Positions 31,344 to 33,201 of a stretch of 64,000 bases of DNA are shown here, one piece after another. Position numbers and translations under genes: made by a program. Source of the stretch: Actinomadura sp. CNU-125 (GTDB lineage: Bacteria > Actinomycetota > Actinomycetes > Streptosporangiales > Streptosporangiaceae); the NCBI RefSeq assembly GCF_001942465.1, contig NZ_MKJY01000570.1, forward strand, positions 1 through 64,000, given 5' to 3'. A model generated the notes under the pieces. The model ran no database searches. It was not told the DNA's origin and saw nothing but the letters and a program-made list of their open reading frames with translations. Numbering within the stretch: the first letter of the stretch is position 1; each line of letters begins with the position of its first letter.

Positions 31344-31420
31344 GTGCCTGCACGGGTCGAAGACCATCGGTTATCTTGCTTACAGACCCCCGGTGGTCGT
31401 CTCCATATCCGTGCAGACAC
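31344..31420 (+). ncRNA. Y RNA 1 (short form)
   Basis: Lower stem CTGCACGG (31348-31355)/CCGTGCAG (31409-31416), extended by GTG/CAC across one mismatch; upper stem GACCATCGG (31362-31370)/CCGGTGGTC (31390-31398). The internal-loop sequences GGGTCGAAG on the 5' side and CGTCTCCATATCCG on the 3' side are nearly identical to those of the second RNA. The Ro/TROVE gene lies 235 bp downstream. Bacterial Y RNAs are known to be encoded next to Rsr genes and bind Ro through such a conserved stem. Confidence 0.75.
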
Positions 31421-31446
31421 CAGACTCGACGAGCAGGCTGGACGCA

Positions 31447-31590
31447 CGGGGAGGGCGGGTCGAAGTCTCGCCGGTTACCACTATTAATGGAGAGGTTGGT
31501 CGGGTTCAAATCCCGTCGCCGGACCTGGTCCGGTGTAGCTCAATGGCAGAGCTCTTATCCCGGTGGGCGTCACCACATCCGCCCTCCCCG
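31447..31590 (+). ncRNA. Y RNA 2 with tRNA-like module (YrlA-type)
   Basis: Closing stem CGGGGAGGGCGG (31447-31458)/CCGCCCTCCCCG (31579-31590), perfect over 12 bp. Inside are the same Ro-site sequences as in Y RNA 1 (GGGTCGAAG; CGTCACCACATCCG). The distal part contains, in order, a T-arm (CGGGTTCAAATCCCG), an acceptor-like hairpin CCGGACC/GGTCCGG, and a D-arm (GCTCAATGGCAGAGC): a tRNA in circularly permuted order, the known architecture of YrlA Y RNAs. Confidence 0.85.
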
Positions 31591-31654
31591 CCCGCTCAGC
31601 CTCCACTCCCCCACATCCGCCCCCTGGGCGGGGCGAAACACCTGGAGGCCGACC

Positions 31655-33201
31655 GTGGCCCGTGACCCCCTCGCTGCCGTCTCCACCATCGCGACGCCGC
31701 AGACCCGGCCGATCCCCGGCCGCGAGCACGAGCAGGTCCGCAACAACGCCGGCGGCTACACGTTCGGCAAGGACCTGTGGACGCGACTGGAGGACTTCAT
31801 CATCCTCGGCACGACCGGCGGCACCTACTACGTCCGCGAGGACAAGCTCACCGCCGACAACGCGCAGGTCGTGTTCGACACGGTGGCGGCTGATGGTGTT
31901 CGCGCGGTGAACCTCGCAACGGAGATCTCCACGGCCCGGCCGCCGCGGGCGCCGAAGAACCGGCCCGCGCTGTTCGTCCTCGCCGCCGCGGCTGCACGCG
32001 GTGACGCCGACACCCGCCAGGCTGTGAAGGCGTCGCTGGCGAAGGCCGCGCGGACCACCGACCACCTCGCCACGTTCTTCGGGTACTGGAAGAACCTCGG
32101 CGGGAAGACCACCTCCGGCGGTACCGCACCGGTCGCCGGCCGAGCGATGCGGGCCGCCCTCGGGTCCTGGTTCCTGGCCGGGGACGTCGACCAGGTCGCG
32201 TGGCGGGCATGCAAGGCGCGGCAGCGGAAGACCCCCGCGGCCAGGTGCCCGCAATCGACGCGTTCCTCGCCGCACAGGCCGTCACCACCCCGGTCGAGGC
32301 GATCGACGTCGTGCAGGACCGCGGGGTGCCATGGGAGTTCCTGCCCGACCACGTGCTCGGCGACGCGGGCGTGTGGGACGAGCTCGTCGACACGGTCGGG
32401 ATGACCGCCCTCATCCGGAACCTGGCGCGGATGACGCGGCTCGGCACCCTCGCCCCGATGAGCGACGCGACCCGCCGCGCTGCAGAGCGCCTCACCAACC
32501 CCGACGCCCTCGCGAAGGCGCGGGTCCACCCGATGGATCTGTTCCTGGCGCTGCGCGTCTACCAGGCCGGGCGGGCGCAGCCGAACCCGCGCGCCGACAT
32601 GCAGACGTGGGCGCCGGTACCTGCGGTCGTGGACGCGCTCGAGGAGGCGTACGAGCTGTCGTTCGGACACGTCGAGCCGTCCGGCCGGCGCATCCTCATC
32701 GCGGTCGACTCGTCCGGTTCCATGTCGTGGGAGAGCGTCCAGTCCGGTGGGGCTCCGCTCGGCACCTGCTACGAGGTCGCGAACGCGATGGCGGTCATCC
32801 TCAACCGCGTCGAGGGCGGCAACGTCCACGTCATCGACGTCGACACCCGCGTCCACGCCTCCAAAGTGACGGCGCGGACGAACCTGCGGGAGATCGGCCA
32901 GTGGCGTCCGTCGGGCGGCGGCACGAACCTGTCGCTGCCGTTCACCTGGGCGCAGCAGGAACGGCTCAACGTGGACGGCATCGTGGTCCTGACCGACAAC
33001 GAGACGTGGGCGGGCCGGTCGCACCCGACGCAGGCGCTGGCGTCGTACCGCCGGGCGGTGAACGGCAACGCGCGGGTCGTGGTGGCGGCGATGACCGCGG
33101 CCGGGCACTCGATCGCGGACCCGCGGGACGAGGGCGTGCTGAACGTCGCGGGGCTGGACGCGTCGCTGCCGATGGTGGTGAACGGCTTCATCCGCGGGTG
33201 A
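31655..33201 (+). CDS. rsr: TROVE/vWA-domain Ro60-like protein (Rsr), one-base frameshift
   Basis: GTG 31655 with GGAGG 7 bp upstream. The N-terminal two thirds are the helical TROVE ring (NNAGGYTFGKDLWTRLEDFI near the start, TTDHLATFFGYWKNLGGKT, MDLFLALRVYQAGRA). The C-terminal vWA domain has the MIDAS motif DSSGSMS and VVLTDNETW. A single base is missing in a CCCCC run near 32237; repaired length is about 515 residues, normal for Rsr. Ro proteins bind Y RNAs and misfolded RNAs and work with exonucleases in RNA decay and stress survival. Two cognate Y RNA genes sit immediately upstream. Confidence 0.85.

Follow-up and report, generated by a model that had tools for sequence, protein, structure and literature searches.

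A strand-swapped copy of the proposed Ro site in the leader of a broken, prophage-borne Ro gene and in related actinobacterial and phage leaders

Introduction

The closest described counterparts of the locus reported here are the YrlA-type Y RNAs (Rfam RF02553; Salmonella YrlA and YrlB), which lie beside Ro, occur as tandem copies and enclose, within a long stem, a T-arm, an acceptor hairpin and a D-arm in permuted order. The rsr-yrlBA operon of Salmonella has two Y RNAs in tandem, as described in excerpts of PMC7790460 and PMC9879122. In D. radiodurans, the RYPER assembly (Rsr-Y RNA-PNPase) is built on a Ro orthologue (structure 2NVO) with adjoining Y RNA genes, and phages encode Ro-like RNA-binding proteins (PHROG 850). 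By what means cells match Ro to its Y RNAs is, to our knowledge, an open question. Autogenous control by ligand mimicry in an mRNA leader is established for ribosomal protein operons and for thrS, where the leader imitates, at the ribosome-binding site, the RNA that the protein binds.

Here, we describe a Ro/Y-RNA locus in the opening 64 kb of a contig of 95 kb, from a 9.96-Mb genome that, judging by its relatives, probably belongs to an actinomycete in or close to Actinomadura; this whole 64-kb stretch is hereafter called the window. The locus resembles these systems in gene content and in the tRNA-like part of one RNA, and it resembles the ribosomal protein operons and thrS in that the Ro mRNA leader carries a likeness of the RNA ligand at the ribosome-binding site. 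Unlike those cases, Ro control is putative, as judged from sequence, and the two strands of the site stand in swapped order. An initial annotation of this DNA was right about the core of the locus, took the protein half to be complete when it is broken, made a rarity claim that is unsupported, and missed the leader hairpin, which is new here and, in our view, the most interesting part of the locus.

Results and Discussion

The locus and its mobile context

The order in the window is an integrase, a 110-aa ORF, two structured RNAs, the Ro/TROVE gene and a phage late region, which bears out the initial placement of a pair of Y RNAs next to Ro in a mobile region, here a prophage. The tyrosine integrase occupies an open frame at 29681..30937 (+ strand; PF00589, E 4.5e-8), the true start of which is probably downstream, and the late region on the other strand carries holin, endolysin, tape measure, major head protein, portal and terminase genes (PHROGs). 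The 110-aa ORF (30956..31288, +) matched no Pfam family and keeps its place between integrase and Y RNAs in Actinomadura rubrisoli (L005), where it is 64% and the integrase 60% identical to the window proteins; distant regulators (GntR, 38%; DUF5753, 31%) are also common to both. Other genes around the locus include a PIN-domain protein adjoining the integrase (28477-29367, -; PF13638) and a collagen-repeat protein in the late region (39462-40025, -; PF01391).

The proposal that Ro and its Y RNAs are cargo of mobile elements suits the window and A. rubrisoli. Of 90 ORFs picked next to seven other Ro loci, 20 were scanned against Pfam; 13 matched (enzymes, a transporter, regulators and one family without known function), none of them phage-like, and seven had no match. 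Ro/Y modules thus occur in chromosomal as well as in prophage settings. Between 30900 and 31700, no sigma-70 promoter site was found, and the single terminator-like site lay on the opposite strand. The single tRNA called by ARAGORN in the window (tRNA-Arg, 44608-44689, minus strand) overlaps a Gp37-like phage gene on the same strand (44369-45604) and finds no support from the Rfam tRNA model at its cut-off, so the call may be false.

Two divergent Y RNAs

Structured RNAs had been proposed at about 31344-31420 and 31447-31590, and both folds proved better than those of shuffled sequences (31326-31425: z -3.25, with 1 of 200 shuffles folding as well; 31446-31590: z -3.38, with none of 200 as good). 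The short Y RNA (31338..31426, +) consists of two stacked helices (helix I, with the proposed Ro site, and helix II) and an apical loop, and has no tRNA-like module. It scores 86.2 bits against the R1 covariance model, the training set of which included this very sequence. The two motifs initially said to be shared are indeed present in both RNAs, GGGTCGAAG near the 5' end and CGTC(A/T)CCA(C/T)ATCCG, of which the CA(C/T)ATCCG part lies near the 3' end. As expected for bacterial Y RNAs, the genes stand beside a Ro gene and the RNA ends are paired in a conserved stem.

The second RNA (31446..31590, +) is recognised as tRNA-like, or YrlA-type, by its fold, by covariation and by a match to RF02553. 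Its module follows the permuted order that had been read from the sequence: a T-arm-like hairpin (CGGGTTCAAATCCCG; 31501..31515, +), identified by sequence and in an alignment of relatives (A4) in which one of three counted pairs varies on both sides and two are invariant; an acceptor-like hairpin (31519..31533, +), with six of seven pairs changed on both sides; and a D-arm-like hairpin (31537..31555, +), with two of four pairs so changed and 99.2% of cells paired. Neither ARAGORN nor the Rfam tRNA model (RF00005) called a tRNA at 31446-31590, where the arms are not in normal order.

The Rfam comparison suggested at the outset gave a divided answer: the YrlA model matches the second RNA (31468-31569), yet its 25.4 bits (E 0.0025 for 401 bases) are far below the gathering score of 69. 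Nothing in the 64-kb window reached any Rfam gathering score, and weak matches to mir-4880 and TB11Cs5H3 were judged to be chance. The RF02553 consensus also lacks the GGGTCGAA/CAYATCCG motif of the window-type Y RNAs, and none of eight further Ro loci scanned reached the YrlA gathering score. Given the gap between 25.4 and 69 bits, we file the RNA at 31446-31590 under a divergent YrlA-like group and not under RF02553. Because Y RNAs at the window and at the eight further loci fall below the Rfam cut-off, RNAs of this group are probably often unannotated; our alignments of short (A3) and tRNA-like (A4) RNAs could seed new RNA families.

Covariation, arrays and co-occurrence with Ro

Covariation in homologous loci, named initially as a check on the two RNAs, is present in both. 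Alignment A3 holds 30 of the 36 short RNAs found by a motif script; 15 of 25 pairs are changed on both sides, and 95.2% of cells pair, a figure that leans towards the structure, since RNAalifold derived it from the same alignment. The covariation score was 0.404, compared with 0.188 in shuffles that ignore relatedness (0 of 500 reached it) and at most 0.166 in slid versions, which retain relatedness. Alignment A4 holds 33 of 49 listed ranges; 17 of 32 pairs are changed on both sides, including pairs in all three tRNA-like arms, and 93.4% of cells pair, again leaning towards a structure edited on the same data (helix II was added by hand from the window row and two predicted pairs were dropped). 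Its score was 0.392, compared with 0.165 in shuffles of the same kind (0 of 500) and at most 0.167 when slid, and 3 of 500 shuffles matched the number of double-changed pairs. Covariation in relatives thus supports both predicted Y-RNA folds.

In the upstream regions of 67 loci (62 non-phage and 5 phage; 14 upstreams, namely 10 duplicates and 4 fragments or doubtful starts, were left out), the motif script found 155 Y RNAs in arrays of one to four. Regular expressions sorted them into 75 with T- and D-arm, 42 with T-arm only, 2 with D-arm only and 36 short ones. No Y RNA was found by the script in five of the 67 loci; it overlooks divergent members, as in L014, L015 and L016, which score none yet show the core motif. 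A short RNA in tandem with a tRNA mimic had been considered unusual. It is common, occurring in 35 of the 67 loci of the script listing, and the Salmonella operon is, in the excerpts cited above, also a tandem. Unlike the described YrlA-type loci, the arrays here comprise up to four RNAs by the script and, where they include a short RNA lacking tRNA parts, usually begin with it; this RNA was the most upstream in 34 of the 35 mixed loci, the exception being L048.

When alignment A3 was made into a covariance model and run with the stricter filters of Infernal, matches to the short RNA at E ≤ 0.01 came from 56 of the 345 genomes of the order. Each of these belongs to the 62 genomes with a Ro relative, and none of the 283 Ro-less genomes matched (Fisher p 3.8e-58, which is overstated, the genomes being related). 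The six Ro genomes without a model match are G039, G040, G041, G044, G137 and G178, the last two of which have Ro fragments only. Many matches lie directly 5' of Ro. Others were seen away from a listed Ro gene (G138:C1:296676-296941, G159:C1:8512248-8512552, G181:C5:15954-16090 and G190:C414:172-322).

A broken Ro gene with an intact paralogue

The initial annotation read a TROVE/vWA gene from 31655 and, with it, a complete Ro ribonucleoprotein locus. The gene is there, with TROVE and vWA_Ro60 domains and a GTG start, but it is not complete: 118 bp are missing, and the frame is shifted, so that the N- and C-terminal parts lie in different frames. The N-terminal piece (31655..32239, +), preceded by a Shine-Dalgarno site GGAGG (31644..31648, +), is 75% identical to residues 3-200 of an intact paralogue and matches PF05731 with E 0.00064, under the curated cut-off. 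The C-terminal piece (32240..33201, +), which carries the vWA_Ro60 domain, matches PF25045 (E 5.6e-43) and PF05731 (E 2.9e-15). The domain pair is thus that of Ro60/Rsr, and a single intact open frame is lacking. The junction (32227..32242, +) was placed by gaps against seven open-frame relatives, five of which show one gap; alignments to L021 and L002 show two nearby gaps summing to 118. CCCGC flanks both sides of the missing stretch in the relative L026, which suggests a deletion between short repeats. The lost segment corresponds very roughly to Ro60 residues 177-220, including H187, a residue that presumably matters for Y RNA binding. As far as can be read from the DNA, the window gene as it stands yields no full Ro. 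In this the locus differs from RYPER, to which it is comparable in gene content.

The intact paralogue lies in the same genome (contig C602, 13012-14685) with one Y RNA, a tRNA-like one, and matches the Rsr structure 2NVO with E 2.8e-85. A degenerate 466-aa Ro paralogue without the middle of the TROVE region was also seen on this contig (16202-17602), with a MerR-like ORF, recognised by eye, between the two (C602 13012-17602; L083).

Five close Ro relatives (67-83% identity) are from Actinomadura, Sphaerisporangium and Streptosporangium, and one more was found in Nonomuraea. In total, 62 of 345 genomes of the order have a Ro relative, as do 2 of 396 in a thin sample of the phylum that includes the window's own genome. 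Relatives of the C-terminal piece occur in 347 phage records (195 Mycobacterium and 117 Streptomyces phages among them), in common with PHROG 850; all are below 60% identity, in contrast to the nearest kin found, in actinomycete genomes. In the Gordonia phages Cashline and BearBQ, the Ro relative lies near an integrase. An IMG/VR copy (L010) is identical to the window over 12,978 bases and may derive from the same reads.

A strand-swapped hairpin in the Ro leader

Between the second Y RNA and the Ro gene, the mRNA leader carries a short hairpin (31612..31637, +) made of both strands of the Y-RNA helix-I motif, the proposed Ro site, in swapped order: the 3' strand of the Y RNA, CACATCCG, comes first and is followed by GGGGCGAA. 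Relatives have GGGTCGAA where the window has GGGGCGAA, one base being changed in the window. In these relatives the hairpin takes the form CAYATCCGCC-loop-GGCGGGTCGAA, directly 5' of the Shine-Dalgarno site. Helix and flanks (CGAA and CAYA) are those of the Y RNAs, and the closing end alone differs. From the end of the hairpin to the start codon, the distance is mostly 10-25 nt, with 17 nt in the window. The leader thus combines likeness to the ligand site of Ro with a location at the ribosome-binding site, and it is on likeness and position that the comparison with known leader mimics is made.

A script found CAYATCCG..loop..GGGTCGA or close forms with at least six pairs in 41 of 62 non-redundant Ro leaders of the order (19 of 81 upstreams, namely 10 duplicates, 4 fragments or doubtful starts and 5 phages, were left out). 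In the other 21, among them the leader of the intact paralogue in the same genome (L018), the hairpin was absent or unrecognised by the script, which missed degenerate forms in L026 and L045. A lineage-neutral descriptor matched 49 of 150 loci, most of them related loci of one order and so not 49 independent cases, and left 101 unmatched; in 40 rounds of dinucleotide shuffling it matched a mean of 1.45 (maximum 4), and it matched 47 of 3000 random windows and none of 150 mirrored leaders. In some of its rows another upstream arm is paired (loops 15-21). A broad descriptor matched 54 loci, of which L066 and L165 are likely chance matches, compared with 4.15 (maximum 7) when shuffled and 5 when mirrored. 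The 150 loci are 170 minus those with near-identical leaders (L109, nearly equal to L005, was retained), and no start codon was found for L113 and L087.

Across lineages, the stem is built from different pairs (p1 A-T/G-C; p3 C-G/T-A; p5 G-C/A-T/T-A; p6 C-G/G-C/T-A), a listing that retains paired elements only and so shows variety and is no test, and the varied stem bases accompany a kept (C/T)GA strand. Within the leader alignment A1, one of seven pairs has a double change, i.e., little covariation. The descriptor behind this listing of stem pairs matched 60 of 150 loci, a raw count in which L060, L162 and L176 are likely chance matches and L070 was misanchored. Rejected as a detector was the loose genome-wide pattern CATCCGCN{2,14}GCGGGTCGA, with matches in 200 of 345 genomes, a number that by eye does not exceed that of its backward control; it has no match in the window's own genome because the leader there has the changed base. 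As this pattern is uninformative genome-wide, the case for the hairpin rests on position and on variants.

Viral contigs L111 and L116 have GGGTTGA in Y RNAs and leader alike, as does L110 less cleanly. The letters of leader and Y RNA are the same in 41 of 51 loci (permutation mean 33.4, maximum 40 of 5000), a count drawn from few lineages with a permutation that ignores relatedness; they disagree in 10, among them five phages as well as L045 and L070, which combine a CC-type leader with TC-type or mixed Y RNAs.

Some phage leaders carry TGCCC-loop-GGGCCGRA. A pattern composed after viewing these leaders, GCCCN{2,8}GGGCCGRA, has 10 matches in 12 whole phage records, of which seven are on the forward strand, all directly before Ro (BoomerJR, Gilson, LukeCage, IchabodCrane, Blueeyedbeauty, Phosso and Daubenski), and three on the reverse strand elsewhere; on the forward strand, five of the 12 records are without a match. 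With the backward control pattern, the same records likewise gave 10 matches (seven forward, three reverse). Hence, the number of matches is at chance level, and only their position is not. The hairpin was not found by eye in eight phages (Cashline, Sixama, Myrna, Colt, Grungle, Sparky, prophiGD43A-5 and GMA2).

Possible self-repression of Ro and alternative readings

As a whole, we consider it reasonably likely that the locus is a partly decayed prophage copy of a Ro/Y module in which Ro represses itself through its leader. The locus itself appears to be a prophage copy, in part decayed, of an actinobacterial module composed of one to four divergent Y RNAs, often the short leader hairpin next, and the Ro gene last. 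Ro would bind helix I of each Y RNA, and the tRNA-like head might recruit or decoy tRNA-binding partners or PNPase, as in known YrlA and RYPER systems. When Y RNA is scarce, free Ro would bind the strand-swapped copy in the leader, provided that it tolerates the swap, and would then cover the ribosome-binding site and stop its own translation, such that Ro would be made only when Y RNA is present to take it. The likeness of the leader hairpin to the Ro site of the Y RNAs suggests that Ro controls its own production. The general form of this proposal, i.e., that many actinobacteria and some phages, including a Sinorhizobium jumbo phage, carry a strand-swapped leader Ro site through which Ro would gauge free Y RNA and adjust its own level, seems to us somewhat more likely than not. 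In the window, the changed leader base and the broken Ro gene fit a decaying copy, and its Y RNAs may be served in trans only, for example by the intact paralogue on C602, or may be relics.

The hairpin could instead be a non-functional relic of the Y-RNA array, left by the fusion of successive units (3' end to 5' end) and kept by descent. In favour of this, its strands correspond to the opposite ends of an array unit, and the script counts between one and four RNAs per array. This reading seems improbable, since the hairpin is located beside the Shine-Dalgarno site, has loops of 3-7 nt though the script allowed 3-16, and pairs its arms with different bases in different lineages. It is moreover found in phages Phosso, Big4 and Blueeyedbeauty, whose 900 upstream nt contain a single weak core match in each case. 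Similarly unlikely is a simple element of translation or mRNA stability, related to RNase or ribosomes and unread by Ro. Hairpins are common in GC-rich leaders, and the Shine-Dalgarno site is predicted to be mostly paired (mean unpaired 0.27 over 43 leaders, a value that has no control set), a point that also weighs against our own reading. Such an element would leave unexplained the match of the unpaired flanks and of the GGGTTGA variant to the Y-RNA motif, and the rarity of the hairpin in shuffled and mirrored leaders.

Binding by Ro might also serve to destroy or activate the mRNA, for example by bringing PNPase, and not to block ribosomes. The example of D. radiodurans, where PNPase is tethered by Rsr together with Y RNA (excerpts of PMC4726728 and PMC8394870), speaks for this reading. 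We consider it quite unlikely, as the site abuts the ribosome-binding site, which in L130 and L132 seemingly lies in the loop, and occlusion fits this more simply. As for the frame break, it might be an assembly or sequencing error, the prophage then carrying a working Ro; a single assembly was seen, L010 being possibly the same data. However, the CCCGC on both sides of the stretch in L026 looks like the trace of a short-repeat deletion, and the leader motif base is also changed, as fits decay; an error is therefore hardly probable. The reading that we prefer remains leader-based self-repression of Ro, with the window locus as a partly decayed copy. Our literature search, at the level of titles and opening lines of abstracts, returned no report of Ro autoregulation or of this leader, and an earlier mention is possible. 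If true, the proposal adds a feedback circuit to Ro ribonucleoproteins, and the likeness of leader and Y-RNA site makes the matching of Ro to Y RNAs directly testable, in bacteria and in phages.

Variant leaders were seen in several other loci. In L118, L121, L123 and L129, the hairpin has the form GCTC(G/A)TG..CA(C/T)GAGCCGAA, with a compensatory change, and is preceded by a CCGGYC..GRCC hairpin; upstream of these GCTC..GAGCCGAA leaders, no convincing Y RNA was found. In viral contigs L130, L132 and L158, a purine-rich ribosome-binding site seemingly lies inside the loop of the swapped hairpin. Finally, in Microbacterium phage FuzzBuster (L092), a short Y-RNA-like element occupies about the last 80 nt directly before the Ro start at 1168, and stands in the place of the leader hairpin.
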